From Microbacterium phyllosphaerae (lineage in GTDB: Bacteria; Actinomycetota; Actinomycetes; Actinomycetales; Microbacteriaceae): a stretch of DNA of 64,000 nt. The notes under the pieces are model-generated. The model saw nothing but the letters and a program-made list of their open reading frames with translations, was not told the DNA's origin and made no database searches. The stretch lies in the NCBI RefSeq assembly GCF_017876435.1, contig NZ_JAGIOA010000001.1, positions 1,674,001 to 1,738,000 on the forward strand. Reading direction: 5' to 3'. Position numbers and translations under genes: made by a program. Shown here in pieces: positions 10,482 to 30,333 of the stretch. Position 1 is the first letter of the stretch, and every line of letters begins with the position of its first letter.

Positions 10482-10494
10482 GGTCGGCCGCGAC

Positions 10495-11598
10495 TCAGGC
10501 GACGGCGACGGAGACGGGGGAGACAAGCGCAGCGAGTTCCGGAGCCAGCGCGACGAGCAGGTCGTTCGCCTCTCGTTCTGCGATCGTCACGCGGAAGCCC
10601 TCGCCCGCGAACGGACGAACCAGCAGACCGTGACGCTCGAGCAGTTCGGCTGCGGCCGTGGTCGCATCGCCGAAAGGCACCCAGACGAAGTTCGCCTGGG
10701 TCTCGGGCAGGGCGATCCCGGCTGCCAGGAATGCCGCGACGACGCGCTCGCGTTCGGTGACGAGATCGGCGACGCGAGCCGAGAGCTCCTCTTCGGCGTG
10801 CAGCGAGGCGACGGCTGCCGCCTGGGCGAGATCTGTCACTCCGAACGGGATCGCGACCTTGCGCAGCGCGTTCGCGAGACGCTCCGGAGCGATCGCGTAG
10901 CCGATCCGCAGGCCGGCCAGGCCGTATGCCTTCGAGAACGTGTGAGCGACGGCGACGTTCGCGTAGCGGCGGAAGTACTCGATCCCCGAGGGTGAATCGG
11001 CACGCTCGTTGAAATGCACGTAGGCCTCGTCGATCACGACGGTGATGTCGCCCGGTACCGCATCGAGGAATGCGGTCAGCTCCTCGGCGCCGATGGTCGT
11101 GCCGGTCGGGTTGTTCGGGTTGCAGACGATGATGAGTCGTGTCCGATCGGTGATCGCCTCACGCATGGCGTCGAGATCGTGCCGGTGGTCGGTCGTGAGA
11201 GCGACGGCGACGGGGGTCGCGCCGGCCGCCCTGACCAGCATCGGGTAGGCCTCGAACGATCTCCACGCGAAAATGACCTCGTCGCCTTCACCGGCGGTCG
11301 CGCGCATCAGCTGCGACACGACCTCGACCGAGCCGCTGCCCAGCACGACGTTCGCCGGGGTGACGTCGAACCGCGCGCAGAGCATCGAGGTGAGCGCGGT
11401 GGCCGCGGTCTCGGGGTAGCGGTTGACGAGCGTGATGCGGTCGGCGATCGCACTGGCGACGGACGGCAGTGGCGGGTAGGGGTTCTCGTTCGACGACACC
11501 TTGTACACGGGAACCTCGGGCGCGGTGTGCGCCGTCGCCTTGCCCGGCTTGTAGTCCGGGATCGCGCTCAGATCCTCGCGCAGTCTCAACTCCGACAT
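10495..11598 (-). CDS. Class I/II PLP aminotransferase, histidinol-phosphate/aromatic type
   Basis: This 367-residue enzyme resembles HisC and the corynebacterial aromatic aminotransferase Pat/AroT. It has K-V-S-S-N-E-N-P near residue 35, the aspartate motif V-V-I-D-E-A-Y-V-H-F near 200, and the PLP lysine in A-H-T-F-S-K-A-Y-G-L-A-G-L-R-I-G-Y-A near 225. The ATG at 11598 follows a GAAAGG-type site; an earlier ATG at 11682 would fall in the operator region. It is not in a his operon. It is divergent from the Rieske oxygenase genes and shares the intergenic operator, so a catabolic aromatic amino acid role is more likely than histidine synthesis. Confidence 0.82.
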   Translation of the reverse strand: MSELRLREDLSAIPDYKPGKATAHTAPEVPVYKVSSNENPYPPLPSVASAIADRITLVNRYPETAATALTSMLCARFDVTPANVVLGSGSVEVVSQLMRATAGEGDEVIFAWRSFEAYPMLVRAAGATPVAVALTTDHRHDLDAMREAITDRTRLIIVCNPNNPTGTTIGAEELTAFLDAVPGDITVVIDEAYVHFNERADSPSGIEYFRRYANVAVAHTFSKAYGLAGLRIGYAIAPERLANALRKVAIPFGVTDLAQAAAVASLHAEEELSARVADLVTERERVVAAFLAAGIALPETQANFVWVPFGDATTAAAELLERHGLLVRPFAGEGFRVTIAEREANDLLVALAPELAALVSPVSVAVA

Positions 11599-11625
11599 CC
11601 GTTCCGCCTTTCTCTCTTCGCCCGT

Positions 11626-11654
11626 TTGACAGTCCAGGGCGGGATTCATAGTAT
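11626..11654 (+). promoter_or_regulatory. Strong sigma70-type promoter of the Rieske operon
   Basis: TTGACA (11626-11631), a 17-bp spacer and TAGTAT (11649-11654) form a near-consensus promoter reading toward the reductase gene. The predicted start, near 11661, falls inside the ATTGA-N15-TCAAT operator. Confidence 0.7.
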
Positions 11655-11658
11655 CGCA

Positions 11659-11683
11659 ATTGACTATATCCATTGTTGTCAAT
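11659..11683. promoter_or_regulatory. Catabolic-island operator, copy 1
   Basis: ATTGA, 15 bases, then TCAAT. The arms extend to AATTGAC/GTCAATT, and a TATATC element lies in the spacer. The same geometry and TATC core occur at 17659-17683 and 30334-30358. It overlaps the predicted transcription start of the Rieske operon and lies upstream of the divergent aminotransferase. The GntR/FadR protein at 16824-17552 is the likely binder. Confidence 0.65.
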
Positions 11684-11725
11684 TCGATCAGGGGTGATCG
11701 GAACGACGGAAGGAGTGGAACGACG

Positions 11726-12694
11726 GTGTCTCAGTTCGCGCCCGAGCTCTCCCCGCTGACCCTCGACCTCCGTGTCCGGGCGATGCGCTGGGAGGCGCAG
11801 GATGTGCTCTCTCTCGAGCTCGATGATCCGACCGGGGCTCTGCTCCCCGCATGGACTCCGGGCGCTCACATCGACCTGCGTTTCGCCAACGGCGTCGAGC
11901 GTCAGTACTCGCTGTGCTCCGACCCGGCCGAGCGCCGATTCTGGCGGGTCGCGGTGCTCTCCGAGACTCCGAGCCGCGGGGGGTCGCGTTACGTGCACCA
12001 GACGCTGCGTACAGGCGACCCGGTCACGGCCTCCGCCCCCATCAATCATTTCGAGCTCGGCGATGCGGCCTCCTTCGTGTTCGTCGCGGGCGGCATCGGC
12101 ATCACGCCGATCCTGCCGATGATCGCCGAGGCCGAACGCCGGGGCGCGCCCTGGCGTCTGGCGTACCTGGGCACCCGTTCTGACGGCATGGCCTTCGCCG
12201 CCGCGCCCCATCTGACCGCAGAGAGCGCGCTGCTGGTCAGTCGTGATCGTGACGATCGTCTCGACCTCGCGGCGTGGATCGGCAGTGTGCCCGACGGCAC
12301 CGGCGTGTATGCGTGCGGCCCCGCCCGCATGCTCGACGAGCTCGAATCCCTCAGCGCGACCTGGCCCCAGGGCGCCCTCCACCTCGAGCGCTTCCAGGCC
12401 AAGGTGTACGGGGAATCCCAGGGCGCGGACACGTTCGAGGTCGAGGCCAGTGCCTCGGGACTCATCGTCACCGTCGAGCGCGGCTGCAGCATCCTCGAGA
12501 TGCTCGAACAGGCGGGGATCGGCGTACCGAGCTCGTGTCTCGAGGGCGTCTGCGGCACCTGCGAGACCACGGTGATCGACGGTGCCCCCGAGCACCGCGA
12601 CTCGATCCTGACTCCGGACGAGCGGGAGAGCAACGAGACCATGATGATCTGCGTCTCCCGATCGCTCGACAGCAAGCTCGTCCTCGACATCTGA
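11726..12694 (+). CDS. PDR/VanB-type oxygenase reductase (flavin, NAD and 2Fe-2S domains)
   Basis: This 322-residue protein carries electrons from NAD(P)H to the Rieske oxygenase encoded next. The flavin domain has R-Q-Y-S-L-C-S at residues 59-65, the nucleotide domain has G-G-I-G-I-T-P at 122-128, and a C-terminal plant-type ferredoxin domain has Cys271, Cys276, Cys279 and Cys309. The domain order matches vanillate demethylase reductase (VanB) and phthalate dioxygenase reductase. AAGGAG at 11710-11715, ten bases upstream, supports the GTG at 11726. A TTG at 11660 lies inside the operator and is rejected. It is the first gene of an apparent five-gene transcript. Confidence 0.9.
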   Translation: MSQFAPELSPLTLDLRVRAMRWEAQDVLSLELDDPTGALLPAWTPGAHIDLRFANGVERQYSLCSDPAERRFWRVAVLSETPSRGGSRYVHQTLRTGDPVTASAPINHFELGDAASFVFVAGGIGITPILPMIAEAERRGAPWRLAYLGTRSDGMAFAAAPHLTAESALLVSRDRDDRLDLAAWIGSVPDGTGVYACGPARMLDELESLSATWPQGALHLERFQAKVYGESQGADTFEVEASASGLIVTVERGCSILEMLEQAGIGVPSSCLEGVCGTCETTVIDGAPEHRDSILTPDERESNETMMICVSRSLDSKLVLDI

Positions 12695-12713
12695 CATCCG
12701 AAACGGAGACACC

Positions 12714-13916
12714 ATGGACACCGGCACCGCATACGGCCTTCGCCTGGGCCAGCCCCTGAACGAGCTCGCGCAGGTGGGGCCAGGCACCCCCTACGGCGAG
12801 GTCCTGCGCCGCTACTGGCATCCGGTGGCGAAGGTCGAGGACGCGACGACGCGCCCGATCTCGCTGCGGGTACTCGGTGAGGAGCTCGTGCTCTTCCGCA
12901 CGAGGAAAGGGAAACCCGGTCTCCTGCACCCTCGCTGCATCCACCGCGGAGCCTCGCTGTTCTACGGCGGGGTCGAAGACGAGGGCATCCGCTGCTGCTA
13001 TCACGGCTGGGTCTTCGACACCGAGGGCCACTGCCTCGAGCAGCCCTGCGAACCCGACCTCGGGCTGCACCGCGATCGCGTGCGCCAGCCCTGGTACCCC
13101 GTCGAAGAGCAGTACGGACTGCTCTGGGCCTACATGGGTCCGCCCGACAGGAAGCCGGTTCTGCCTCGCTACGACACGCTCGAAGAACTCGCGCCCGGAG
13201 AGCAGCTGATCGTGAACGACCAGGGCGTCGGCGGCGGAGGCCCCGCGCAGCTCGACTTCAACTGGCTGCAGCACTGGGAGAACGTCATGGACCCCTTCCA
13301 CGTGCCGATCCTGCACGCGCGCTTCAGCGGAAACCAGTTCACTCCCGAGATGGCGTTGATTCCGGAGGTCAGCTACGAGTACACCCCGCTGGGCGTGCGA
13401 TCGATCCAGATGCGCGAGCTCGGCGACGGCCGCCAGCTGCGACGGGTCACCGAGGTGATCTTCCCGAACCTGCGCGTGGTGGCGAGCCCGAAGCTCAGCT
13501 CGGGGCAGACCAACATGATCGGATGGGTCGTGCCGATGGATGACACGAACTTCCGCATCTTCACGGTGGCACGGGACGAGGACTCCGACTTCCTCGCGAA
13601 ACTGCGGTCCACGCACGAGGGCAAGCCCTGGAAGGAGCTCACGGAGCTCGAACACCAGCGACTCCCCGGCGACTATGAGGCGCAGAAGTCGCAGGGCTCG
13701 ATCTCGCTGCACTCCGAGGACCACCTCACGACGACCGATCAGGGCATCGCGATGATCCGACGGATGATGGCGAAGCAGCACAGGGCGGTCGCCGGTGGCG
13801 GCGACCCGGTCGGCGTCTTCTTCGATGAGTCCGAGCGCCTGGTGCGTATCGAGGGAGGCAACTACTTCGAGGGTGAGGCGCACGCTCCGCTGCTCGCCGA
13901 GGCCGTGGACGACTGA
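12714..13916 (+). CDS. Rieske non-heme iron oxygenase, catalytic component
   Basis: A 400-residue ring-hydroxylating or demethylating oxygenase of the VanA/phthalate 4,5-dioxygenase type. The Rieske cluster ligands are Cys75, His77, Cys94 and His97. The mononuclear iron site is N190-x2-D193-x2-H196-x4-H201 (E-N-V-M-D-P-F-H-V-P-I-L-H). It lies 19 bp after its reductase, so a two-component system is complete here without a separate ferredoxin. Such enzymes hydroxylate aromatic rings or remove O- or N-methyl groups. The substrate is unknown, but nearby amidases suggest a nitrogen-containing aromatic compound. Confidence 0.9.
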   Translation: MDTGTAYGLRLGQPLNELAQVGPGTPYGEVLRRYWHPVAKVEDATTRPISLRVLGEELVLFRTRKGKPGLLHPRCIHRGASLFYGGVEDEGIRCCYHGWVFDTEGHCLEQPCEPDLGLHRDRVRQPWYPVEEQYGLLWAYMGPPDRKPVLPRYDTLEELAPGEQLIVNDQGVGGGGPAQLDFNWLQHWENVMDPFHVPILHARFSGNQFTPEMALIPEVSYEYTPLGVRSIQMRELGDGRQLRRVTEVIFPNLRVVASPKLSSGQTNMIGWVVPMDDTNFRIFTVARDEDSDFLAKLRSTHEGKPWKELTELEHQRLPGDYEAQKSQGSISLHSEDHLTTTDQGIAMIRRMMAKQHRAVAGGGDPVGVFFDESERLVRIEGGNYFEGEAHAPLLAEAVDD

Positions 13917-13917
13917 G

Positions 13918-14451
13918 ATGGCCAAGTACACGGCGCGCCCGCCGCGAGGCGATCGACCGCTGCTCGTGCTCGGCATCAGCGGCGTCGTGGTGCTCGAAGG
14001 AGAGGCTGCTGTACCCGTGTCCACGCATCATCTCTCGGCGTGGGGTCGCTGGGTGCGCGACGTGGCCATCCCGGACGCAGCCCCCGAGCGTCTGGCCGAA
14101 CTCGCCGCGCGATTCGAGATCGTCTGGGCCTCGGAGTGGGGACACAACGCGCACACTGCTTTTCGCGACGCCCTCGATCTGCCGGATGAGCCCTGGCCGT
14201 TCCTGCCGGTGCAGTTCGACAAGCTGCGGATCATCCGCGAGTACGCCGGAGCGCTGCCCTGGGTGTGGGTGGACGACCCGATCGTCGACCTGCACGGCAT
14301 CCCCGAGTGCACGGACGGAGTGATCGTGCGGGTGGACCCCGCCGACGGAATCGTGGGGATCGACCCCGACGATCTGTGGGAGCGGGTCGCGCAGCTGCCG
14401 CAACGCGACGATGCGGAGACCGAAGACACCGATGTGGGAGGGCGCGCATGA
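13918..14451 (+). CDS. HAD-like protein (SAK-type HAD fold) lacking the catalytic aspartates
   Basis: This 177-residue protein resembles small actinobacterial HAD domains of the kind named for Swiss-army-knife RNA repair proteins. It keeps I-V-W-A-S-E-W-G-H-N-A near residue 62 and L-P-W-V-W-V-D-D near 112. Where the family has a D-V-D-G-V nucleophile motif, this one has L-G-I-S-G-V (about residues 18-23), so both aspartates are gone and phosphatase chemistry seems impossible. It starts one base after the Rieske gene's stop and overlaps the next gene by four bases (ATGA), so it belongs to the catabolic operon. A structural or regulatory role is possible. The family call is tentative. Confidence 0.65.
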   Translation: MAKYTARPPRGDRPLLVLGISGVVVLEGEAAVPVSTHHLSAWGRWVRDVAIPDAAPERLAELAARFEIVWASEWGHNAHTAFRDALDLPDEPWPFLPVQFDKLRIIREYAGALPWVWVDDPIVDLHGIPECTDGVIVRVDPADGIVGIDPDDLWERVAQLPQRDDAETEDTDVGGRA

Positions 14452-15626
14452 CCGCGGACGTGGCGATCATCGGCGGGAGGGTCGTGACCGGGCTCGGCGA
14501 CGACATCGAGGGTGCGACCGTGCTCGTGCAGGGCGGCCGCATCAGCGGCGTCGGCATCGATGTCGAGGTGCCGGACGATGTGCGCACGATCGACGCCTCC
14601 GGTGCCTGGGTGCTCCCCGGGCTCATCGATGCGCACAGCCACATCGGCGCGCACGAGGAGGCGAACGGGGCAGCGGGATTCGACGGCAGCGAGGTGACGT
14701 CGCCCAACACGGCGGGAGTGCGGGCGATCGACGCGATCAACATCGAGGACATCGCCTTCCGTGATGCTCTGGCCGGGGGAGTGACGACCGTGGTCGTCAA
14801 ACCGGGATCGGGCAATCCGATCGGCGGGCAGAGCGTGGCGATCAAGACCGGCGGAGGTCCCACGGTCGATGCCCGCGTGGTGCGTGCCGACGTCAGCGTG
14901 AAGTCGGCTCTCGGTGAGAACCCGAAGGAGACCTACGGCAAACGCTCGCAGATGCCGGCGACCCGACTCGGTATCGCCTATGTCATCCGTCAGGCCCTCC
15001 TGGATGCCCAGGACTATGCGGTGCGCCGTGCGAAAGCCGGGGACGACGGCACGCCGTTCGCCCGCGATCTCGGCAAGGAGGCGTTGGTGCGCGCCCTCTC
15101 TGGCGAGCTCAGCTGGGACCAGCACGTGCATCGTCATGACGACATCGCGACGGCGCTGCGGATCGCGGACGAGTTCGGGCTCCGGCTCGTGCTCAACCAC
15201 GGCACCGAGGCACATAAGCTCGCCGAGGTGCTGGCCGAGCGCGATGTGCCGGTGATCTTCGGCCCGATCCTGTCGAGCCGTTCGAAGGTCGAGGTGCGCG
15301 AGGCGGATCCCTCGAACCTCGCCACGATCGCCGCCGCGGGAGTGCGCATCGCGTTGACCACGGACCATCCGGTCGTGCCGATCGGACACCTCGCGCTGCA
15401 GGCCGCTGTCGCGGTGCGGGCCGGTCTTCCGCGGGCCGCGGCCATCGCCGCGATGACGTCGTCTGCAGCCGAGATCGTGCGCATCGATGACCGCACCGGG
15501 GCGCTCGATGTCGGCCGCGACGGCGACGTCGTCATCTGGTCGGGTGACCCGTTGGACGTGGCCTCGCGGGTGCTGAGGGTGTTCATCGACGGCGTCGAGG
15601 TGCACGCCGCGGAGGCCGGCGGATGA
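14448..15626 (+). CDS. Imidazolonepropionase-like metal-dependent amidohydrolase
   Basis: This 392-residue amidohydrolase-superfamily enzyme would hydrolyse a C-N bond with one or two metal ions. Visible marks are the D-A-H-S-H metal motif (His63, His65), V-V-K-P-G-S-G-N-P-I-G-G-Q near 120, L-N-H-G-T-E-A-H near 248, and the T-T-D-H-P-V-V-P aspartate motif near 304. It overlaps the HAD-like gene upstream and the M20 gene downstream by four bases each, which indicates coupled translation. Related proteins are often annotated HutI-like without known substrates. A peptide, hydantoin or cyclic amide substrate would fit the operon. Confidence 0.85.
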   Translation: MTADVAIIGGRVVTGLGDDIEGATVLVQGGRISGVGIDVEVPDDVRTIDASGAWVLPGLIDAHSHIGAHEEANGAAGFDGSEVTSPNTAGVRAIDAINIEDIAFRDALAGGVTTVVVKPGSGNPIGGQSVAIKTGGGPTVDARVVRADVSVKSALGENPKETYGKRSQMPATRLGIAYVIRQALLDAQDYAVRRAKAGDDGTPFARDLGKEALVRALSGELSWDQHVHRHDDIATALRIADEFGLRLVLNHGTEAHKLAEVLAERDVPVIFGPILSSRSKVEVREADPSNLATIAAAGVRIALTTDHPVVPIGHLALQAAVAVRAGLPRAAAIAAMTSSAAEIVRIDDRTGALDVGRDGDVVIWSGDPLDVASRVLRVFIDGVEVHAAEAGG

Positions 15627-16816
15627 GCTCACTCCGCGAGGATGCCGCGGTCCTCCAGCCGGATCTCGTCGCGCTGCGGCGACGACTGCACGCGCACCCC
15701 GAAGTGGGCTTCGCGCTGCCTGAGACGCAGCGGACCGTCCTCGACGCTCTTGCGCCGCTCGGGCTGGACATCACCACGGGCAGCGATCTCGGTTCGGTGA
15801 CCGCCGTGCTGCAGGGTGCATCGGAGGGGCCGTCGGTGCTGCTGCGTGGGGACATGGATGCGCTCGCGATCGTCGAGCAGACCGGACTGCCTTATGCGTC
15901 GACGAACGGTGCCATGCACGCATGCGGGCACGATCTGCACATCGCAGGGCTCGTCGGCGCGGCACGACTGCTGGCGAGCAGACGTGAGCAGATCTCGGGC
16001 TCCGTGGTCTTCATGTTCCAACCGGGCGAGGAGGCGGGCGGCGGCGCGCCGCTCATGATCCGTGACGGCGTGCTGGATGCGGCGGGGTCGCGTGTCGCGG
16101 CCGCCTACGGCATCCATGTCATGCCCGGAATGCCCGGTGTCTTCCAGACGAGGGCAGGAGGGTTGATGGCGAGCGCGAACTCGGTGCGCATCCGAGTCAG
16201 AGGTCAGGGCGGTCATGGATCCAGGCCCTATCAGGCTGTGGATCCGGTGCCGGTCGTCGCCGAGATCGTCCTCGCGCTGCAGGCATGGGTGACGCGCGGG
16301 TTCGACGTGTTCGACCCGGTCGTGCTCACGGTGACGCAGTTGCACGCGAGCGAGGTGATCAACGTCATCCCCGATGAGGCGGGGCTGGGGGCCACACTGC
16401 GAACGGTCTCGGGCGACGCCGTGGTGAGAGCCCAACGCGAGATCCCGGTGCTGGCGTCGCGCATCGCGGCGGCGCATGGGTGCTCAGCGGTGACAGAGGT
16501 GATCGTGGGGTATCCGGTGACCGTGAACAGCGCTCCGGAGGCTGCGGGCGCGATCGATGCTCTCGGCGCCGAGTTCGGGCACGACCGCGTCGAGCGATTG
16601 GCCGCTGCGGTCATGGCCTCGGAGGACTTCTCGTTCGTGCTCGCCGAGGTGCCGGGTGCCTTCGTGTTCCTGGGGGCGACGCCTGCGGGGATCGATCCGG
16701 CCGACGCCGAGATGAACCACTCGCCACGAGCGGTGTTCGACGACGGGGTGCTGGGAGATCAGGCAGCCGCGCTCGCCGCTCTGGCGCTGCGCCACGTCGG
16801 CACCGAGGCGCAGTAG
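15623..16816 (+). CDS. M20-family N-acyl amino acid amidohydrolase (first paralogue)
   Basis: This 397-residue protein belongs to the hippurate hydrolase/IAA-amino acid hydrolase group. It has L-L-R-G-D-M-D-A-L (about residue 73), the metal motif H-A-C-G-H-D-L-H near 97, and F-Q-P-G-E-E-A-G-G-G near 132. A lid domain with G-Q-G-G-H-G-S-R-P follows near 193, and M-A-S-E-D-F-S-F near 332. It would cleave N-acylated amino acids such as aromatic amides. It is the last gene of the Rieske operon by ATGA overlap. A second paralogue closes the transporter operon at 26256-27440, so two related amides or two steps may be served. Confidence 0.9.
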   Translation: MSSLREDAAVLQPDLVALRRRLHAHPEVGFALPETQRTVLDALAPLGLDITTGSDLGSVTAVLQGASEGPSVLLRGDMDALAIVEQTGLPYASTNGAMHACGHDLHIAGLVGAARLLASRREQISGSVVFMFQPGEEAGGGAPLMIRDGVLDAAGSRVAAAYGIHVMPGMPGVFQTRAGGLMASANSVRIRVRGQGGHGSRPYQAVDPVPVVAEIVLALQAWVTRGFDVFDPVVLTVTQLHASEVINVIPDEAGLGATLRTVSGDAVVRAQREIPVLASRIAAAHGCSAVTEVIVGYPVTVNSAPEAAGAIDALGAEFGHDRVERLAAAVMASEDFSFVLAEVPGAFVFLGATPAGIDPADAEMNHSPRAVFDDGVLGDQAAALAALALRHVGTEAQ

Positions 16817-16823
16817 CTCGCGG

Positions 16824-17552
16824 TCAGCGCCCGAGCGTGCGGTGGTCGAGTACGGCCTTGCGGCCGGCTTCGACATCGCCTGAGCGGATGGCTTCGACCA
16901 GCGCGGTGTGGATGTGCAGACGCTCGTCGGTGTCGGGGCGGAACCCCGGTACAGACAGGTCGGCGTCGTCGGTGCTTCCGCTGGTCTCGCCCTCGATGTA
17001 GTCGACGAGGTTGAGGTAGAACGTGCGGAGCACCGCGTTCGGTGAGATCTCCGCGATTCGCCGGTGCAGGCGCCAGTTGCCGTGCAGACCTTCGACAGGG
17101 TCGTGCCAGTGGTCGGCGATCTCGGCCATCAGCGCATCGAGGTCGGCGATGTCGGCGTCGGTGCGATGCACGACGGCATCGCCCATGACGGCCTCGTCCA
17201 GAGCGTCGAGCACCTTGACCACATCGTGCACGGGGGCGCCGGTCTGGCGGAGCCGCAGCACGCTGTGGGCGAGTCGGATGAGAGGCGACTGGTCGGCGAC
17301 GAAGATGCCGCCGCCGGGGCCGGGGCGGAGGTCGACGGAACCGCGGGCTCGGAGCACGCGGAGGGCCTCTCCGAGGGTGGCGGGCGCGACGCCGAACTGC
17401 TCGCACAGCTCCTGCCTCGTGCCGATCCGGTGGCCGGGGGAGAGCTCCTCGGCCTTGATCATGGCCTCGACCTCGCTGACGACCCTGTCTGCCACGGACT
17501 GTGCCGGCGCGACACGCTGGAAGGTGCGTGCGTCGTCCTGGGTGTTGGCCAC
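16824..17552 (-). CDS. GntR-family regulator, FadR subfamily (FCD domain)
   Basis: This 242-residue regulator has an N-terminal winged helix (about residues 17-85, with the turn R-P-G-P-G-G-G-I-F-V). Its C-terminal FCD ligand domain keeps the metal or ligand histidine pattern H-x3-H in the G-N-W-R-L-H-R-R-I-A segment and a later D-E-R-L-H-I-H-T. GAAGGA six bases upstream favours the GTG at 17552; an ATG at 17597 is possible but lacks such a site. It is divergent from the ThDP enzyme gene. An ATTGA-N15-TCAAT site in that gap recurs before two other transcripts, so it probably controls the whole island. Confidence 0.87.
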   Translation of the reverse strand: MANTQDDARTFQRVAPAQSVADRVVSEVEAMIKAEELSPGHRIGTRQELCEQFGVAPATLGEALRVLRARGSVDLRPGPGGGIFVADQSPLIRLAHSVLRLRQTGAPVHDVVKVLDALDEAVMGDAVVHRTDADIADLDALMAEIADHWHDPVEGLHGNWRLHRRIAEISPNAVLRTFYLNLVDYIEGETSGSTDDADLSVPGFRPDTDERLHIHTALVEAIRSGDVEAGRKAVLDHRTLGR

Positions 17553-17658
17553 GGTTGTCCTTCGGTCGAGGTCGGGGAGGTGGAGCGGATCCTTCACATC
17601 CTAGGGAGCGCGTGACGCGGCGAGGGTGTGACACGAGGGAAATCTGCTATTTGCAGTA

Positions 17659-17683
17659 ATTGAATGTATCTAATACAGTCAAT
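17659..17683. promoter_or_regulatory. Catabolic-island operator, copy 2
   Basis: ATTGA-N15-TCAAT with a spacer containing TATC, between the divergent GntR and ThDP enzyme genes. It shares AATTGAATG with the element near 20866-20884 and its geometry with copies 1 and 3. Its position next to the GntR gene suggests autoregulation. Confidence 0.65.
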
Positions 17684-17712
17684 CTCGCAATGCTGCTCAT
17701 GAGAGGAACCAG

Positions 17713-19380: not shown

Positions 19381-19381
19381 C

Positions 19382-20821: not shown

Positions 20822-20865
20822 TCAGTTACATACCCGAAACACCGCTGACACGAACCTATAAAAAG

Positions 20866-20884
20866 TAATTCATAACATTCAATT
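20866..20884 (-). promoter_or_regulatory. Possible degenerate copy of the island operator (half-site)
   Basis: On the minus strand this reads AATTGAATGT followed by TATGAATTA. The first ten bases equal those of copy 2, but the opposite TCAAT arm is absent. It lies about 40 bp upstream of the transporter operon. I rate it as suggestive only. Confidence 0.3.
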
Positions 20885-20925
20885 GGGTTGAACCGCACCC
20901 CGCGGAACCCGTGAGAGAGGACACC

Positions 20926-22500: not shown

Positions 22501-22504
22501 CCGT

Positions 22505-23527
22505 ATGACGTCGCAGATCGTGACGCGGCCGAAGACCGTCGTGGTGGCCACCCCTCGGGGTGGTCGCCACGGCGGCGGGCGCTGGGTCCCCTTCCTCCTT
22601 CGGCGAGTAGGCCGGATGCTCATCGCGATGCTCGTGATCGTGACGGCGGCATTCGTCGTGCTGCGCGCTGCCGGCGGAGACCCGGTGCGGGCCGCGCTCG
22701 GCCCCACCGCGCCGGCATCCGTGGTGGCTGAGCGCCGCGCGCAGCTCGGGCTCGACGATCCGCTGATCGTGCAGTTCTGGGACTACCTGACGGGCATCGT
22801 GCTTCGGGGCGATCTCGGCGTCTCTCTCATCACCGGGCGATCGGTCAACGAGCTCGTCGAGTTCCGGCTCCCCGCGACGGTGCAGCTCGCGGGGATCGCG
22901 TTCATCGTGATCCTGCTCATCGCCATTCCGCTGGGGCTCGCGATCGCGATCCTGACCGTCGGCAACAGGCGCCGTCCGGTCGAGCTTGCCTTCACCTCGG
23001 TCACCGGCTTCTTCGCCGCCGTGCCCGAGTACCTGATCGGCGTCGTGCTGCTCATGGTGTTCGCGATCACGATCCCGATGCTCCCCGTCGCCGGAATGAG
23101 CGGGCCGCAGTCCTTCATCCTTCCGGTCCTCGCCCTCGCTCTCGGCGCCTCGGCCTCTCTGTCGCGCATCGCCCGTGTCGAGGCGATGAACGTGCTCACC
23201 GACGACTACATCCGCACCGCGCGATCGAAGCGGCTGCCCGCCGCGATGATCTACTTCCGGCACGCGCTGCCGAACATGCTCACCGCGACACTGACTCTCG
23301 GCGGCGCACTGCTGGCGACGATGATCGCCGGAAGCGTGCTCGTCGAGCGGGTCTTCAACTGGCCGGGCATGGGCAGCGCCTTCGTGCAGGCCATCCTCAC
23401 GAAGGACTACGGCATCGTGCAGGGCCTCGCCATCGTCTACGCGGCGATCATCCTCGTCGTGAACCTGCTGGTCGACATCGTCCTCGCCGTCCTCGACCGT
23501 CGCACGACCATTCTGGAGACCGCATGA
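22505..23527 (+). CDS. ABC transporter permease, DppB/OppB type
   Basis: A 340-residue inner-membrane permease with six hydrophobic segments. The DppB family N-terminus (L-L-R-R-V-G-R-M-L-I) begins near residue 32, and the coupling loop has E-A-M-N-V-L-T-D-D-Y-I-R-T-A-R-S-K near 225. The first 30 residues are an unusual basic leader, and a 7-bp hairpin (CCACCCC/GGGGTGG, 22548-22563) lies in the codons for residues 15-20, which may reduce translation relative to the binding protein. The gene overlaps the next by four bases. Confidence 0.9.
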   Translation: MTSQIVTRPKTVVVATPRGGRHGGGRWVPFLLRRVGRMLIAMLVIVTAAFVVLRAAGGDPVRAALGPTAPASVVAERRAQLGLDDPLIVQFWDYLTGIVLRGDLGVSLITGRSVNELVEFRLPATVQLAGIAFIVILLIAIPLGLAIAILTVGNRRRPVELAFTSVTGFFAAVPEYLIGVVLLMVFAITIPMLPVAGMSGPQSFILPVLALALGASASLSRIARVEAMNVLTDDYIRTARSKRLPAAMIYFRHALPNMLTATLTLGGALLATMIAGSVLVERVFNWPGMGSAFVQAILTKDYGIVQGLAIVYAAIILVVNLLVDIVLAVLDRRTTILETA

Positions 23528-25455
23528 CCTCCGCACACCGGCGTCGTTCCTGGCTGCTGCAGTCACCGATGGCGTTGATCTCCCTGACCTTCATCGCGAT
23601 CTTCGCCCTTCTCGCCGTCATCGCTCCCATGCTCTGGGGAACGCAGGCCGAGACCCCGTCTCCGGCCGACCTGCTGCAGCCTCCGAGTGCGGAGCACCTG
23701 CTCGGCACCGATGCGCTCGGCCGCGATCTGCTGCTGCGCACGCTCGTGGCGACGCGCCTGTCACTCGTGATGGCGCTGGCGGCGACCGCGATGGGTGCTG
23801 TCGCAGGGCTCATCCTCGGCGCGCTGCCGGTGGTCGCGGGTGCCCGCGTGCAACGCCTCTTCGGGTCGGTGATCAACACCTGGCTCGCGTTCCCGGTGCT
23901 GCTCGTGGCCATGCTCACGGTGATCCTGCTCGGCACCGGATCCACGACCGCGGTGATCGCGCTGGCCCTGACGATGACCCCGTCGTTCGCCCGTCTGGCG
24001 CAGACCCTGTCGTCTCGCGTCGGCGGCTCGGAGTATCTCGCAGCGGCCCGCCTGCTCGGTGTGTCGAAGACGCGTCAGTTCACCCGGTACATCATTCCGA
24101 ACATCGCCGAACCCGTGATCGTCAACGTGACGCTCTCGATCGGCGGCGGGCTGCTCGCGCTGTCGAGCCTGAGCTTCCTCGGGGTCGGTGTGCAGCCACC
24201 CGAGTACGACTGGGGCCGCCTGCTCAGCGAGGGCTTCGAGCAGGTCTACAGCCAACCGTCGGCGATCGTCGGCCCCGGCGTGATGGTGGTGGTCGCCGGC
24301 ATCATGTTCGGCATGTTCGGTGAGGCGCTCGCCTCGCACATGCGCGGTCGAGGCCGGGCGCGCACGCTCTCGGCGCGCGAACTCGGCGATCCGACCCGCG
24401 TCGATGCGACGGGCGTCGCGGAGGAGCCCACCGACGACGTCGAGCCGCTCCTCGAAGTGGCAGGTCTCAGCGTCTCGTTCCCCGGCGAGCACGGCTGGGT
24501 TCGTCCGGTGCAGGACGTCTCGTTCCGCATCGCCCCCGGCGAGATCGTCGGCGTCGTCGGCGAATCGGGCAGCGGGAAGAGCGTGACGATGATGGCGATC
24601 GCGCAGCTCGCGCCGGCAGGTGCCGCGGTCAGTGCGCAGCGGCTCCGCTTCGCCGGTGAGGAGCTCGCGGGTCTCTCGGACGAACGTGCGGCGAAGAAGC
24701 TCGGTACCCGCGTCGGCGTCGTCTTCCAGGACTCTCTGACAGCTCTCAACCCCGCGCTCCGCGTGGGCACGCAGCTCGCCGAGGTTCCGCGGGTGCACCA
24801 GGGCGCATCGCGCAAGGATGCCGATGCCGCGGCCGTCGAGGCCCTCGCGGCCGTGTCGATCACCGATCCGAGCCGCCGTGCCAAGCAGTTCCCGCACGAG
24901 TTCTCCGGAGGCATGCGTCAGCGCGCACTGATCGCGATGTCGCAGATCGGCAAGCCGAGACTGATCATCGCCGACGAGCCGACGACGGCCCTCGACGTCA
25001 CGGTGCAGCAGCGCGTGCTCGCTCTGCTGCGTCGAGAGTGCGAGGAGACGGGCGCTGCCGCGATCGTCGTGTCGCATGACATCGCGGTGCTCGCCGAGCT
25101 GTGCCAGCGGATCCTCGTGATGTACGGAGGCCGGATCGTCGAGGATGTCGACGTGCGTCATCTCGCCGAGCCCGAGCTCCTCGCGCACCCCTACACGCGG
25201 GCGCTCGCCGAGTCGCTCCCCGACCTCGACACCGATCGCACCGCTCCGCTCGCGACGATCCCCGGTGAGCCGCCGGATCTCTCGCTGCCGGTCGTGGGAT
25301 GCGGATTCGCACCACGCTGCGCCTTCGCGACCGAGGTGTGCCGCACCGAGACGCCGCAGCTCGTGGCCCACGGCTCCGGACGTGTGGCGTGCTGGCATCC
25401 GCAGGATCAGGATGCGGGCGTCCACGAAGACTCCTTCGAGAAGGCGGGTGCATGA
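23524..25455 (+). CDS. Fused ABC permease (DppC type) and ATPase (DppD type)
   Basis: A 643-residue single frame. Residues 1 to about 285 form a DppC-like permease (six membrane segments; coupling loop E-Y-L-A-A-A-R-L-L-G-V-S). Residues from about 315 form a DppD-like ATPase with Walker A G-E-S-G-S-G-K-S (346-353), signature F-S-G-G-M-R-Q-R and Walker B L-I-I-A-D-E-P-T-T-A-L-D. The oligopeptide-transporter C-terminal cysteine-rich element (C-G-F-A-P-R-C) is present. The two functions are usually separate genes; no stop or frameshift separates them here. It overlaps both neighbours by four bases. Confidence 0.93.
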   Translation: MTSAHRRRSWLLQSPMALISLTFIAIFALLAVIAPMLWGTQAETPSPADLLQPPSAEHLLGTDALGRDLLLRTLVATRLSLVMALAATAMGAVAGLILGALPVVAGARVQRLFGSVINTWLAFPVLLVAMLTVILLGTGSTTAVIALALTMTPSFARLAQTLSSRVGGSEYLAAARLLGVSKTRQFTRYIIPNIAEPVIVNVTLSIGGGLLALSSLSFLGVGVQPPEYDWGRLLSEGFEQVYSQPSAIVGPGVMVVVAGIMFGMFGEALASHMRGRGRARTLSARELGDPTRVDATGVAEEPTDDVEPLLEVAGLSVSFPGEHGWVRPVQDVSFRIAPGEIVGVVGESGSGKSVTMMAIAQLAPAGAAVSAQRLRFAGEELAGLSDERAAKKLGTRVGVVFQDSLTALNPALRVGTQLAEVPRVHQGASRKDADAAAVEALAAVSITDPSRRAKQFPHEFSGGMRQRALIAMSQIGKPRLIIADEPTTALDVTVQQRVLALLRRECEETGAAAIVVSHDIAVLAELCQRILVMYGGRIVEDVDVRHLAEPELLAHPYTRALAESLPDLDTDRTAPLATIPGEPPDLSLPVVGCGFAPRCAFATEVCRTETPQLVAHGSGRVACWHPQDQDAGVHEDSFEKAGA

Positions 25456-26255
25456 TGGCTGATCTCGTCATCGAGAACCTCGTGGTCACGTTCGGTCGAG
25501 GCCACCACGCCGTGAACGCTGTCGACGACGTGTCGCTCACCGTGCCGCACGGCACGACGGTGGGGCTCGTCGGCGAGTCGGGTTCGGGAAAATCGACCGT
25601 CGCGCGCACCGTCGCCGGGCTGCAGAAGCCGACCTCGGGGCGCATCCTGCTCGACGGCACAGACCTCGCGGTCGGCCGCCGCGATCGCCGTGCACATGCC
25701 CGCGACGTGCAGATGATCTTCCAGGATCCGTACTCCTCGCTCAATCCGCGCATGTCGGTCGGAGAGACCCTCGATGAGGCCCTCGCGACTCACGGAGCGG
25801 GCAACGCGCGCGCTCGCGCCGCCGGAGTCAAGGAGCTCCTCGAACTCGTCCGGCTCAAGCCCGGGGTCTCGGAGCTGCATCCGTCGAGCCTGTCCGGAGG
25901 CATGCGGCAACGCGTCGCCATCGCACGCTGTCTCGCCGTGAAACCGCGACTGATCATCGCCGACGAGATCACCTCGGCCCTCGACGCCTCGGTGCAGGGT
26001 GCGGTGCTCAACCTCATGCGCGAGCTGCAGCGCGAGCTCGAGCTCTCGGTGCTGTTCATCACGCACAACCTCGCCGCGGTCCGCTACATCGCCGACACGA
26101 CGGCGGTCATGCGCAACGGCGAGATCGTCGAGTACGGTGACGCCGACGCGATCGTCTCGCACCCGGTGCATCCGTACACACAGGCGCTCGTCGCCGCGAT
26201 CCCGCGCATCCAGAACGCGGGAACCGACAGCCTCCTCCACTCGATCGGACACTGA
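25452..26255 (+). CDS. ABC transporter ATPase, DppF/OppF type
   Basis: This 267-residue ATPase has Walker A G-E-S-G-S-G-K-S-T near residue 40, the Q-loop F-Q-D-P-Y-S-S-L-N-P-R-M near 94, the signature L-S-G-G-M-R-Q-R-V-A-I-A-R near 148, and Walker B I-I-A-D-E-I-T-S-A-L-D near 172, where Ile replaces the usual Pro. It pairs with the ATPase half of the fused protein to power import. The ATG at 25452 overlaps the upstream stop by four bases. Confidence 0.92.
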   Translation: MMADLVIENLVVTFGRGHHAVNAVDDVSLTVPHGTTVGLVGESGSGKSTVARTVAGLQKPTSGRILLDGTDLAVGRRDRRAHARDVQMIFQDPYSSLNPRMSVGETLDEALATHGAGNARARAAGVKELLELVRLKPGVSELHPSSLSGGMRQRVAIARCLAVKPRLIIADEITSALDASVQGAVLNLMRELQRELELSVLFITHNLAAVRYIADTTAVMRNGEIVEYGDADAIVSHPVHPYTQALVAAIPRIQNAGTDSLLHSIGH

Positions 26256-27440
26256 ATGACCCTGCTCGACGATGCTCGGGGCCTCCTTCCCGAACTCGTG
26301 GCCCTGCGCCGCGCCATCCACGCCGACCCCGAACTCGGACTCGCGTTGCCCAGAACTCAGCAGAGAGTGCTCGATGCCCTCGAACCGTGGGAGCTCGAGA
26401 CACGGTGCGGCACCGGCCTGAGCTCCGTGGCCGCGGTCGTTCGCGGCGCGCACCCCGGCCCGACGGTGCTGCTGCGCGCCGACATGGATGCCCTGCCGCT
26501 CACCGAGGACACCGGACTCGACTACGCCGCCTCGGGAGAGCGGATGCACGCGTGCGGGCACGACCTGCACGTCGCCGGTCTCGTCGGCGCCGCTCACCTG
26601 CTGGCCGCCCGTCGGGAGGAGCTTCACGGCGACGTGCTGCTGATGTTCCAGCCGGGTGAGGAGATCGGCGACGGTGCGAAGCGGATGATCGACGAGGGTC
26701 TGCTGAAGCTCACCGGATCGACCCCTGTCGCGGCTTTCGGCATTCACGTGGTGCCGGGGGAGTACGGGATCTTCTCGACCCGCGTCGGTGCTCTCATGGC
26801 CGGAGCGATCGAGGTCGAGGTGACCATCACCGGTCAGGGCGGCCATGCCTCGGCGCCGCACCTCACCCGCGACCCCGTGCCGGCACTCGCTGAGCTGGTG
26901 ACGGCTCTGCAGACTTTCGTCACACGACGCTTCGATGTGTTCGACCCTGTCGTGCTCAGCGTCACCCAGGTGCACGCGGGCGGCCCCGCCCGCAACATCA
27001 TCTCCGACACCGCGACCCTCGTCGCCTCGGTGCGGGTGCTCTCGCACGAGAGCAGCGCCCGGGTGCAGGAGGAGCTGCCGGTGCTCGCCCGCGAGATCGC
27101 CGCGGCTCACGGCTGCACCGCGGAGGTCGACACCACCGTGCTCTGCCCGCCGACCGTCAACGACGCGAGCGCTGTCGCCGCCGTGCGCTCGACGCTGGCC
27201 GGGCTGTTCGGCGAGGAGCGGGTGCTCGAGACCCCGAATCCGGTGATGGGGTCGGAGGACTTCTCGTACGTGCTCGAGCAGGTGCCGGGTGCGTTCCTGT
27301 TCCTTCGCGCGACGCCCGCAGAGGTCGATCTCGAGACGGCCGCACCGAACCACTCGCCGCACGTCGTGTTCGACGACTCGGTGCTGGCCGATCAGTCGGC
27401 CGCGCTCGCTGCCTTCGCGCTCGACCGGCTGCGGGGCTGA
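26256..27440 (+). CDS. M20-family N-acyl amino acid amidohydrolase (second paralogue)
   Basis: A 394-residue paralogue of the enzyme at 15623-16816. It has L-L-R-A-D-M-D-A-L near residue 72, M-H-A-C-G-H-D-L-H near 95, F-Q-P-G-E-E-I-G-D-G near 131 and M-G-S-E-D-F-S-Y near 330. The start codon abuts the transporter ATPase stop with no gap, so the transporter ligand is probably the substrate of this hydrolase or its precursor. This direct link between importer and amidase is the best clue that the importer carries N-acyl amino acids or small peptides. Confidence 0.9.
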   Translation: MTLLDDARGLLPELVALRRAIHADPELGLALPRTQQRVLDALEPWELETRCGTGLSSVAAVVRGAHPGPTVLLRADMDALPLTEDTGLDYAASGERMHACGHDLHVAGLVGAAHLLAARREELHGDVLLMFQPGEEIGDGAKRMIDEGLLKLTGSTPVAAFGIHVVPGEYGIFSTRVGALMAGAIEVEVTITGQGGHASAPHLTRDPVPALAELVTALQTFVTRRFDVFDPVVLSVTQVHAGGPARNIISDTATLVASVRVLSHESSARVQEELPVLAREIAAAHGCTAEVDTTVLCPPTVNDASAVAAVRSTLAGLFGEERVLETPNPVMGSEDFSYVLEQVPGAFLFLRATPAEVDLETAAPNHSPHVVFDDSVLADQSAALAAFALDRLRG

Positions 27441-27461
27441 GACAGCCCTTCGCCCCTCGCG

Positions 27462-28838
27462 TCAGCGCTGGAGGAACGCGCGGAGGTCGGCGTTGAGCCG
27501 GGCCGAGACGTCGGCGTCGCTGTACATCATGTGCCCGGCCTCGTAGCGGTGGGCTTCAGTGCGCTCGCGCGGCAGGTCCCAGTGGCGCAGCAGGTGGTCG
27601 GCCGCGCCGACGGTCGTGAGCGAGTCGTAGACCCCGGTGCCGATGAAGAGCCGCGACCGGGGCATCTGCGTCATCCACTGCGAGAGCCGTGCCGGGTACG
27701 GGTACGTGTGGAACGGCGAGGGGCGGCCCATCGCGATGAACCTCGCGCTGCCCTCGTCTTCCCACGTCCAGTTCCGGCCGGCCTCGGGGTCGACGATCCG
27801 GTACGGACGATCGGGGGAGTCAGGGAACGCCTCGGCGAGCAGCTGAGCGAGTCCGGAGGCATACCTCGGCGACAGCGCGACATCAGACGGGTCGATCTCA
27901 CCCTCTCCCCACGAGCGATCTCCGGCTCGCGACTGATAGCGACTGTCTGTGACTCCCAGCGTCCTGCCCCGCAGCAGCCGTGCGCGGAAGTCCTGCTTGC
28001 TGATCCAGAGTCGTGAATCGATCAGCTCCTGCGTCGGGATGCCGATCATGCCGGACAGCCTCGCCGCTGTCTCCGACAGTGCGGATGCTGAGATCTCATC
28101 GCCCTGCAGCATCGCGAGCGCCAGGTCGGTGCGCGCGAAGTGGAGTGCGGCGTCGATCGCGTCGTCGACCGTCGAGTGCTCGCGCGAGCCGACGCCTTGG
28201 AACCACGCGGTCGCCGCCTTGTAGGGCAGATTGGCGAGCGCGCCGACGACGTTGCCCGGCCGGTCGAGGGTCTCCTGGATGTTGACGGCCTGCCCGAGCA
28301 GCGCGATGCCGTCGAGGGGCGCGGTGTCCGCACCGTGCGCGGTGGTCGCGAGGAAAGCCGCGCGCTGCGTGCCATAGCTCTCGCCGAGGAAGAACTTCGG
28401 CGAGTCCCACCGGCGGTGTCGGTTCACCCACTCGGAGATCGCGATGGCGATGGCGTCGGCGTCGCCCTCGACGGACCGGAAGGCCGATGCATCCGCTTCC
28501 TCGGCGAACGATCCGAAACCGGTTCCCGGTGCATCGAGGAACACCAGGTCAGCGACATCGAGGATCGTCGACGGACTCGCCTCGATCCCGTAGGGCGGAG
28601 CGCCGTCGGTCACGGGGTCGCGAGGGATCCGTGCACGCCACGGGCCGATGCCGCTGAGGTGCAGGTAGACCGACGACACGCCGGGGCCGCCGTTGGTGAG
28701 GAACAGCACGGGGCGAGTGGCCGTGCCGTCGACGACGTAGCTGAACGCCGAGACCGTGCCCTGCGCGACGCCGTCCGAGCGCCGCAGCGGCAGCTCCTCG
28801 AGTCGCGCGGTGTACTCCAGGGGGCCCATGCGCCGCAT
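27462..28838 (-). CDS. S10-family serine carboxypeptidase (second of tandem pair)
   Basis: A 458-residue alpha/beta hydrolase of the serine carboxypeptidase family. The N-terminal oxyanion motif is N-G-G-P-G-V-S-S near residue 49, the nucleophile elbow is G-E-S-Y-G-T near 148, and the final catalytic histidine is in Y-E-A-G-H-M-M-Y near 440. No signal peptide is visible, so it is probably cytoplasmic, unlike most S10 enzymes. It begins one base after its paralogue ends, and both would trim C-terminal residues from imported peptides or hydrolyse acyl conjugates. Confidence 0.88.
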   Translation of the reverse strand: MRRMGPLEYTARLEELPLRRSDGVAQGTVSAFSYVVDGTATRPVLFLTNGGPGVSSVYLHLSGIGPWRARIPRDPVTDGAPPYGIEASPSTILDVADLVFLDAPGTGFGSFAEEADASAFRSVEGDADAIAIAISEWVNRHRRWDSPKFFLGESYGTQRAAFLATTAHGADTAPLDGIALLGQAVNIQETLDRPGNVVGALANLPYKAATAWFQGVGSREHSTVDDAIDAALHFARTDLALAMLQGDEISASALSETAARLSGMIGIPTQELIDSRLWISKQDFRARLLRGRTLGVTDSRYQSRAGDRSWGEGEIDPSDVALSPRYASGLAQLLAEAFPDSPDRPYRIVDPEAGRNWTWEDEGSARFIAMGRPSPFHTYPYPARLSQWMTQMPRSRLFIGTGVYDSLTTVGAADHLLRHWDLPRERTEAHRYEAGHMMYSDADVSARLNADLRAFLQR

Positions 28839-28839
28839 G

Positions 28840-30303
28840 TCAGCGGGCGGTGGCGTCGAGGTAGAACGCGTCGAGGTCGCTCTTCATCCGCTCGACCGCT
28901 CGCTCGTCGACGAACGTCATGTGACCGGATTCGTAGAACGTGAAGCGGATGTTCTCGCGCAGCGACGGCGCGAGATAGAGGTGCGCGACGTCGAGCTCCG
29001 GACCGAAGAACGGCGTCGCCAGGTCGTAGAAGCCGCCCATGACGTAGACCTTGAGGTTGGGGTTGCGTCGCACCGCTGCCGAGAGATCGAGCGAGACGTC
29101 GGGAACGAGCTGGGGAGCGTCGATCCCCGGCGCCTTGTGCTTCCAGTCCCAGGCCCGGGCGATCGGCATGTTGTGCAGGTGCCGGTAGTGCAGCTCGCTC
29201 GTGTAGCCGATGTCGTCGACCAGGTGGGTGCGGTAGGTCGACAGGTGCGCGCTGTTCACCCCGGCTGTCGCCGCATCGTCGGTCGCGGGGTCGTGCGAGC
29301 CGTTCCCCACGACGTACTGGTGCTCGGCCGTGAAGCGGGTGTCGAAGCGTCCGATGACTTTGCCCTCGTCGGCGAGCAGCGCATAGCGGTACTGCTCCAT
29401 GCCGATGCGGAAGTGGTGCGTCTTGAGGTAGTCGGCGTCGAGTCCGATCAGGGCGCTCAGCTGCTGGGCCACCGCATCCTCCTGCGCGCCGGAGAGCAGG
29501 TCTCCACGCAGCAGAGCCTCGGCGAATGGGCCCTGTGCGAACTCGCGGGCCTCCGCGAGGAACGGTTCGAGCGCCGTGTGCGTCGTGCGCGCCTTGCCGT
29601 GATACCAGGCGGTCGCCGCATACGAGGGCAGCAGGTTGATGTACTCGCGCGGGCCGCCCAGGTTGCTCTCGCCCCAGTTCAGCACGGTCGACAGCAGCAC
29701 CACGCCGTTGAAATCGAGTCCCTGGTTCTGCAGGCGGTGCACGAGCGCCGATGCCCTGGTCGTGCCGTACGACTCTCCGAACAGGAAACGCGGGGCGTTC
29801 CATCTGTTCGTGAGGGTGAGCCAGCGGGTGATCGCCTTGGCGAAGGCGTCGACGTCCTGGTCGACGCCGAAGACCTCGGACTCCTCGGCGTCTCCGAGCA
29901 GCCGCGAATAGCCGGTGCCGGGGGCGTCGATGAACACGAGATCCGATGCGCTGAGCAGCGTGTGCGGGTTGTCGCCCGAGAGGTAGGGCGCCGGAGGAGT
30001 CGCCTGCGGGGTGTTCGTGGGGGTGCGCTTCGGGCCGAAGCCGCCGATGTTGAGCCACAGGCTCGCAGATCCGGGGCCGCCGTTGAAGAGGAACGTCACG
30101 GGGCGCACGGGGCCGCCGTCGAGGCGGTCGGCGATGTACGAGGTGTAGAACACGCTCGCGAGCGGGCGCTGCTCGTCGTCGCGGACGATCACCGTGCCGG
30201 CACCCGCGGAGTAGGCCAGCGTGCTCCCGCCCACCGTGATCTGGTAGCGACGCGAGGTGAACGTCTCAGAGGTAGCGCTGTCGGCAGGTATCGGCTCGGT
30301 CAC
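28840..30303 (-). CDS. S10-family serine carboxypeptidase (first of tandem pair)
   Basis: This 487-residue paralogue has N-G-G-P-G-S-A-S near residue 74, the nucleophile motif G-E-S-Y-G-T-T-R near 175, and the terminal Y-E-S-G-H-M-T-F histidine motif near 460. The GTG start at 30303 has AGGGAG upstream. No signal peptide is seen. An island-type operator lies about 30 bp upstream, which ties this pair to the catabolic genes rather than to the RamB-like gene that precedes it on the same strand. Confidence 0.88.
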   Translation of the reverse strand: MTEPIPADSATSETFTSRRYQITVGGSTLAYSAGAGTVIVRDDEQRPLASVFYTSYIADRLDGGPVRPVTFLFNGGPGSASLWLNIGGFGPKRTPTNTPQATPPAPYLSGDNPHTLLSASDLVFIDAPGTGYSRLLGDAEESEVFGVDQDVDAFAKAITRWLTLTNRWNAPRFLFGESYGTTRASALVHRLQNQGLDFNGVVLLSTVLNWGESNLGGPREYINLLPSYAATAWYHGKARTTHTALEPFLAEAREFAQGPFAEALLRGDLLSGAQEDAVAQQLSALIGLDADYLKTHHFRIGMEQYRYALLADEGKVIGRFDTRFTAEHQYVVGNGSHDPATDDAATAGVNSAHLSTYRTHLVDDIGYTSELHYRHLHNMPIARAWDWKHKAPGIDAPQLVPDVSLDLSAAVRRNPNLKVYVMGGFYDLATPFFGPELDVAHLYLAPSLRENIRFTFYESGHMTFVDERAVERMKSDLDAFYLDATAR

Positions 30304-30333
30304 GGGGCTCCCTGGAGGTCAATGAATGAGTGA

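Follow-up and report, generated by a model that had tools for sequence, protein, structure and literature searches.

Here, we describe a 16-gene catabolic block in Microbacterium phyllosphaerae that is probably a horizontally moving regulon for the breakdown of a ring-substituted tyrosine-type amino acid, supplied as a small peptide or an N-acyl derivative. The block occupies positions 10457-30353 of the window, the 64,000-nucleotide stretch analysed here (C1:1674001-1738000, inside a single 3.73-Mb contig, C1), whose proteins have their nearest named relatives in Microbacterium. It combines an importer, hydrolases, an aminotransferase, a thiamine diphosphate (ThDP)-dependent enzyme, an aldehyde dehydrogenase (ALDH) and a Rieske oxygenase, with the following features in window coordinates:

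10457-30353, the entire insertion, flanked by the alkZ-like gene and the helix-turn-helix (HTH) regulator gene and delimited by empty-site alignments
10495-11598, minus strand, aromatic-type (Pat family) aminotransferase (NF002878; the open reading frame (ORF) extends to 11682, with 11598 as the probable start)
11658-11673, plus strand, operator-like motif copy 1, between the aminotransferase and reductase genes
11726-12694, plus strand, FNR-type reductase with a C-terminal 2Fe-2S ferredoxin domain (Pfam/NCBIfam; relatives annotated as PDR/VanB family)
12714-13916, plus strand, Rieske oxygenase, PobA/phthalate-dioxygenase-like (CxH-CxxH and DxxHx4H motifs)
13918-14451, plus strand, small HAD-like protein with the motif I nucleophile changed from Asp to Gly (predicted model and homologue alignment)
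14448-15626, plus strand, amidohydrolase, Amidohydro_1/3 (Pfam/NCBIfam; top PDB match 3ooq, "amidohydrolase")
15623-16816, plus strand, M20 amidase a (group of YxeP, indole-3-acetic acid (IAA)-amino acid hydrolase homologues and N-acyl-Gln aminoacylase)
16824-17597, minus strand, GntR-FCD regulator (Pfam/NCBIfam)
17658-17673, plus strand, operator-like motif copy 2, between the GntR regulator and ThDP genes
17713-19380, plus strand, ThDP-dependent enzyme, proposed arylpyruvate decarboxylase (NF006122, 665 bits, cut-off 571)
19382-20821, plus strand, ALDH (Pfam; catalytic Cys context NAGQTC)
20911-22500, plus strand, family-5 solute-binding protein (SBP; Pfam)
22505-23527, plus strand, ATP-binding cassette (ABC) permease 1 (Pfam)
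23524-25455, plus strand, fused ABC permease 2-ATPase (Pfam)
25299-26255, plus strand, ABC ATPase 2 (Pfam; mechanical ORF, real start probably near 25452)
26256-27440, plus strand, M20 amidase b (Pfam; 57% identical to M20 amidase a)
27462-28838, minus strand, S10-like serine hydrolase a (partial Pfam match; GESYG)
28840-30303, minus strand, S10-like serine hydrolase b (partial Pfam match; GESYG)
30333-30348, plus strand, operator-like motif copy 3, upstream of the S10 genes

The aminotransferase gene thus stands back to back with the run from reductase through Rieske, HAD-like and amidohydrolase to M20a, the GntR gene stands back to back with the run from ThDP through ALDH, importer and M20b, and the S10-like pair is transcribed inward from the right end of the block. 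Since the aminotransferase, GntR and S10 genes lie on the minus strand, the block comprises about five transcription units, read from three promoter regions, rather than one operon. Pfam and NCBIfam profile scans returned the gene classes, at the same positions, that a preliminary description made from the letters alone had assigned. That description had also reported many ATGA overlaps; four-base overlaps fit the coordinates for HAD/amidohydrolase, amidohydrolase/M20a and permease 1/permease 2, but not for Rieske/HAD, ThDP/ALDH or S10a/S10b.

The stretch 10457-30353 is an insertion, because the alkZ-like gene (9374-10456) and the HTH gene (30354-31796) on its two sides neighbour each other in relatives that lack the block. 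When 58 genomes, including this one, were searched for alkZ, 22 others gave a match; the two genes lie within about 110 bases of one another in 12 of these, and farther apart or on separate contigs in the remaining 10. Five empty-site alignments start no more than 3 bases from the right border and stop no more than 100 bases from the left border. Two genomes (G191 and G363) hold the block at the same alkZ-HTH site; in a third (G022) that site is empty and the entire block, from S10b to the aminotransferase, lies more than 1 Mb away. From these comparisons, the block appears to be mobile and to move horizontally as a unit. Across the genus, the Rieske gene (at least 87% identical) is present in 14 of 366 genomes and the ThDP gene (at least 79%) in the identical 14, with a 48-54% ThDP paralogue in a further 17. 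A DDE transposase fragment (L187:5522-6154) lies near the displaced copy in G022. In Microbacterium sp. Se63.02b (locus L025), the amidohydrolase, ThDP, ALDH and SBP matches are fragmented or cut, perhaps through sequencing errors or decay.

All three promoter regions of the block contain a 16-base operator-like motif, AATTGAMTRTATCYWW, which was chosen by eye in AT-rich intergenic DNA from these three sites, so that its exact match there is by construction. No fourth match with up to 3 mismatches was found in the window (shuffles average 0.21), and all other matches in the whole 3.73-Mb genome have at least two mismatches, four sites having two. Exact copies precede S10b in G191, in G363 and, at the other insertion site, in G022; exact copies also occupy the GntR-ThDP site in six loci (L024, L025, L026, L033, L169 and L186). 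The reductase-site copies of these islands have 0-3 mismatches. The five empty sites have no copy at up to 4 mismatches. Matches are weaker (2-4 mismatches) or missing in G387, in G061 (L170, L171, L191) and in other genera. Judged by this shared motif, the block is probably one regulon, and we propose that its GntR-FCD protein recognises the motif copies, through which it would probably govern all three promoter regions.

Three enzyme classes form the core of a putative amino-acid funnel. The class I/II aminotransferase scores above the NF002878 cut-off, a model itself named histidinol-phosphate transaminase, and has the pyridoxal-phosphate lysine motif; its top PDB match is 4r2n, a putative Phe aminotransferase (314 bits, runner-up 159). 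It is an extra copy, with paralogues of 58% and 49% and a distant 34% gene elsewhere in the genome. The ThDP enzyme has three ThDP domains and the GDG...N motif, and the models next to NF006122 are a 5-guanidino-2-oxopentanoate decarboxylase and acetolactate synthases. Like Ehrlich-type aromatic amino-acid catabolism, the block joins aminotransferase, ThDP enzyme and ALDH classes within one unit; it differs in that its ThDP enzyme falls in NF006122, a family named only "hypothetical protein". The importer consists of the family-5 SBP, one permease, a fused permease-ATPase and one ATPase.

The Rieske enzyme has both the C-x-H/C-x2-H and the D-x2-H-x4-H motifs, and no diol dehydrogenase was recognised among the scanned genes of the block. 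Such a gene set fits angular ether attack, O-demethylation or monohydroxylation, and not plain cis-dihydroxylation. Over 387 columns, the enzyme is 52% identical to a Sphingobium baderi SC-1 plasmid protein whose gene of 1,230 bases fits sca. We take the diaryl-ether-cleaving Sca to be its nearest tested relative. According to passages of one report, Sca shares 96% identity with PobA and breaks down 3-phenoxybenzoate, releasing phenol as one of the products (PMC11026547). The block resembles the PobAB/Sca phenoxybenzoate dioxygenases in this Rieske identity, in a single alpha-type subunit and in a PDR/VanB-type reductase (41% identical), whose gene remains adjacent to that of the Rieske enzyme in some relatives; it differs in that its Rieske gene sits among aminotransferase, ThDP, ALDH and HAD genes and in that several relatives are linked to homoprotocatechuate genes. 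On a quick tree of 87 Rieske rows (midpoint root, long branches flagged), the Sca-type sequences (L022, L023) are on a separate long branch outside the 14-row clade of island enzymes that includes our own. The presence of a ThDP neighbour changes at least 7 times on this tree, gains and losses being counted together.

A catalytically degenerate HAD-like protein is a constant, unexplained neighbour of this one Rieske clade: its gene lies immediately downstream of the Rieske gene in 13 of the 14 clade members, with the order reversed in L032, and tblastn (E ≤1e-10, half query coverage) did not find it in the loci of the other 73 rows. Motif I, D-x-D, reads G-I-S here, with loss of the nucleophile Asp; among 83 homologues the first position is Gly in 68, D-x-D is kept in 14 and one is misaligned. 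The "HAD-like" label of the preliminary description has no Pfam or NCBIfam match above cut-off (HAD_SAK_2, 17.2 bits against 27.5), but the top Foldseek matches of a predicted model (predicted local distance difference test score (pLDDT) 87.4, predicted template-modelling score (pTM) 0.82) are HAD phosphatases, although weak ones (best E 1.5e-3 with a template-modelling (TM) score of 0.53, none at E ≤0.001). The model thus predicts a HAD fold, and we would guess that the protein is a scaffold or maturation factor for the oxygenase.

Gene order in relatives, taken from tblastn, extends the synteny to other Microbacterium, an Arthrobacter metagenome-assembled genome, Streptomyces, Actinophytocola, Sphaerimonospora and, in part, Aminobacter, with the aminotransferase, reductase, Rieske, HAD, GntR, ThDP, ALDH and ABC genes conserved across genera. 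Several of these relatives carry homoprotocatechuate genes alongside. In Sphaerimonospora, HpaH, a fused FAA hydrolase-RraA, HpaE and HpaD adjoin the Rieske and reductase genes (HpaD, HpaE and HpaH above NCBIfam cut-offs); in Actinophytocola, HpaD and HpaE adjoin the island, both above cut-offs; and in Streptomyces fuscichromogenes, the ABC genes are followed by matches to FAA-RraA, HpaE and HpaD. Aminobacter plasmid pMET1 has an annotated run of hpaR, isomerase, hpaE, hpaD, FAA hydrolase, hpaH, hpaI, ALDH, ABC transporter (permeases and ATPase 28-40% identical to the island's) and FCD regulator and, past a second aromatic arm, the aminotransferase, ThDP, reductase and Rieske genes, all within 505.5-535.1 kb. 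Rieske, aminotransferase and ALDH genes occur together with HpaE/G/H/I-like genes at two Sphingomonas loci. Among 45 genomes (our own and those of 45 of the 80 Rieske loci, minus L078), HpaD scores above cut-off in 12 of 14 in which the Rieske gene is ThDP-linked and in 1 of 31 in which it is not (Fisher p 3.9e-8, ignoring kinship). The 14 are our own genome and 13 of 15 linked loci, L025 and L033 being left out as further Microbacterium; L030 counts as linked here through a ThDP fragment at a contig end and as unlinked in the Rieske tree.

The M. phyllosphaerae genome has its own HpaI-, H-, D-, E- and FAA-RraA-type genes at C1:1609.6-1616.3 kb. HpaD scores 426 bits (cut-off 321.4), FAA-RraA 827 bits (NF009399, cut-off 444) and HpaI 293 bits, under its cut-off of 369; HpaE and HpaH are 83% and 67% identical to the Sphaerimonospora proteins. 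In having HpaD/E/G/H/I-type genes, this genome and several relatives resemble the 4-hydroxyphenylacetate/homoprotocatechuate meta pathway (HpaBC, HpaDEGHI); the difference is that no HpaB match was found in our genome, and that the upstream part is formed by a Rieske enzyme and an amino-acid funnel. By the linkage to Hpa genes in the relatives, the end product of the island is likely homoprotocatechuate. Beside the hpa cluster lies a phenol 2-monooxygenase-like FAD (flavin adenine dinucleotide) enzyme (L111:17702-20000), and the regulator there is presumably IclR-like.

From these gene identities, we infer the following substrate, order of steps and ring chemistry. The family-5 ABC system would import a small peptide or N-acyl amino acid, from which the M20 (perhaps also the S10) hydrolases would free the amino acid. 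The Pat-type aminotransferase would convert this to an arylpyruvate, the ThDP enzyme would decarboxylate the arylpyruvate to an arylacetaldehyde, and the ALDH would oxidise the aldehyde to an arylacetate. The Rieske enzyme and its reductase would then attack the substituted ring carbon, most likely removing an ether-linked group, given that no gene of the block was recognised as a diol dehydrogenase, and so yield homoprotocatechuate for meta cleavage by HpaD/E/G/H/I, encoded about 70 kb away here and in-cluster in some other genomes.

A more specific form of this proposal, which we regard as doubtful, is that the island degrades diaryl-ether-linked amino acids, for example of the isodityrosine or thyronine type. 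Isodityrosine is a cross-link of plant cell-wall extensin. If this were true, peptides would be imported and hydrolysed, both amino-acid ends would be cut to acetates and the Rieske enzyme would cleave the aryl ether through angular dioxygenation; a diacid derived from isodityrosine would give two homoprotocatechuates with no phenol left, and the oxygenase would have the degenerate HAD protein as its dedicated partner.

Several findings weigh against the proposed pathway or parts of it. The ThDP family is without a proven decarboxylase function, and the top PDB matches of the enzyme are acetolactate synthases. With regard to regulation, the S10-bearing stretch of G061 (L191) has no motif copy at up to 4 mismatches and the rest of its block (L171) a single copy; the hpa genes of our own genome carry none either, and by the motif test they are therefore outside the regulon of the block. 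These hpa genes lie about 70 kb from the island, and no hpa gene adjoins the island in the Microbacterium loci that were read. That all 14 island genomes have HpaD carries little weight, because it is found in 309 of the 366 genomes of the genus. Kinship-aware pairing of the HpaD comparison yields 3 supported pairs, too few to test: over 200 draws, HpaD differed in the same direction in 1.6 pairs, never in the opposite one, and not at all in 1.4. Two loci (L085, L097) have ThDP and Rieske genes and no HpaD match; for the two Sphingomonas, no ThDP gene was found at the locus and no HpaD match genome-wide.

The chief ground for caution on the end product comes from sister clusters. Two of four loci fetched from other Microbacterium, L165 (882-18942) and L168, combine ThDP, GntR, aminotransferase, ALDH and FAD-type oxidoreductase genes with LigB, Amidohydro_2 and RraA, plus an M20 gene in L165 and not in L168; L166 and L167 are without this set. 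The "FAD-type" gene (L165:5240-6901) has no Pfam match and is named for its 55% identity to an Aminobacter protein annotated as an FAD-dependent oxidoreductase. The sister ThDP enzymes are 49-50% identical to the island's, and no Rieske gene was seen in either cluster. Their amidohydrolases (L165 from 19002 onward, L168 from 17788 onward) are 76-77% identical to that of Aminobacter pMET1 (L021:1686-2939), which suggests, from sequence identity, a recent transfer between phyla. The second arm of pMET1 (L200:29156-45001), with LigB-, Amidohydro_2- and RraA-type genes and a 4-hydroxybenzoate 3-monooxygenase, separates the Hpa run from the aminotransferase-ThDP-Rieske genes; because a second lower arm stands beside the same genes, the product need not be homoprotocatechuate alone. 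Hpa genes adjoin the island in three actinobacteria, and protocatechuate-/gallate-type genes are present in Aminobacter and L165/L168. The sister clusters suggest a modular design of one amino-acid funnel with exchangeable ring arms. The second arm in Aminobacter is placed as though the substrate had two rings.

These arms bear on a rather unlikely alternative, in which an arylglycine-type substrate would be transaminated and decarboxylated to a benzaldehyde and oxidised to a benzoate, which the Rieske enzyme would turn into protocatechuate or gallate in the manner of PobA-type enzymes acting on phenoxybenzoate. Sca acts on a benzoate, the Aminobacter cluster holds the 4-hydroxybenzoate 3-monooxygenase with LigB/RraA-type genes, and LigB, Amidohydro_2 and RraA also occur in a Microbacterium sister cluster alongside ThDP, GntR and aminotransferase genes. 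However, the lower-pathway neighbours in S. fuscichromogenes, Actinophytocola and Sphaerimonospora belong to the HpaD and HpaE families, named for homoprotocatechuate, and the sister clusters show no Rieske gene and a ThDP enzyme that is just 49-50% identical. It is similarly improbable that the island handles ordinary tyrosine or 4-hydroxyphenylacetate, with the Rieske enzyme as a plain 3-hydroxylase in place of HpaB. The missing HpaB match, the Hpa genes adjoining the island in other genera and the lack of a recognised diol dehydrogenase would all suit such a role, but the FAD enzyme stands beside the hpa cluster and hpaD is far commoner in the genus than the island (309 genomes against 14), so 4-hydroxyphenylacetate is probably served without the island; in addition, the nearest tested Rieske relative known to us cleaves ethers.

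We consider it very unlikely that the block is a chance union of two unrelated sub-operons (Rieske-HAD-amidohydrolase-M20 and ThDP-ALDH-ABC-M20) acting on different compounds. Many relatives of the Rieske gene are without a nearby ThDP gene, and some relatives of the island, L027 and L029 among them, lack the amidohydrolase and M20a. Against this stand the motif common to all three promoter regions, the identical 14 genomes for the Rieske and ThDP genes, the joint movement of the block, and co-clustering in more than one lineage, as seen in the changes of ThDP state on the tree.

Returning to a regulon for a substituted tyrosine-type amino acid, the interpretation in the preliminary description holds in part: the coherent catabolic unit is borne out by recurring gene order in other genera, sharp ends and the matching 14-genome distribution, synteny reaches well beyond the strain and the family Microbacteriaceae, and its Ehrlich-like set of aminotransferase, ThDP enzyme and ALDH is present, with an aromatic-type aminotransferase by the 4r2n match. 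New here are the likely homoprotocatechuate end product, the kinship of the Rieske enzyme to ether-cleaving enzymes, the mobility and the shared operator-like motif. A relative of an ether-cleaving Rieske enzyme is thereby tied to amino-acid catabolism and homoprotocatechuate. The block is sharply bordered, its promoter regions share one motif, and partial relatives occur in two phyla; a simple induction screen could therefore reveal its substrate.

The block appears to combine known enzyme types in a way not described before. Word searches of the open-access PubMed Central (PMC) literature, several of which covered parts of the question only, found no matching pathway, in agreement with the earlier statement that no named pathway has this gene set. 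The lumichrome (lum) cluster of Nocardioides simplex, according to passages of its description, likewise brings a ThDP-dependent decarboxylation together with a Rieske oxygenase in a single catabolic cluster (PMC12746152). As given there, it differs in having a two-subunit Rieske enzyme with separate ferredoxin and reductase, a two-protein ThDP enzyme, a P450 and a xanthine oxidase, and the word "aminotransferase" is absent from the main text of that paper; on subunit make-up and gene set, lumichrome catabolism was rejected as a match for the block (PMC12746152).

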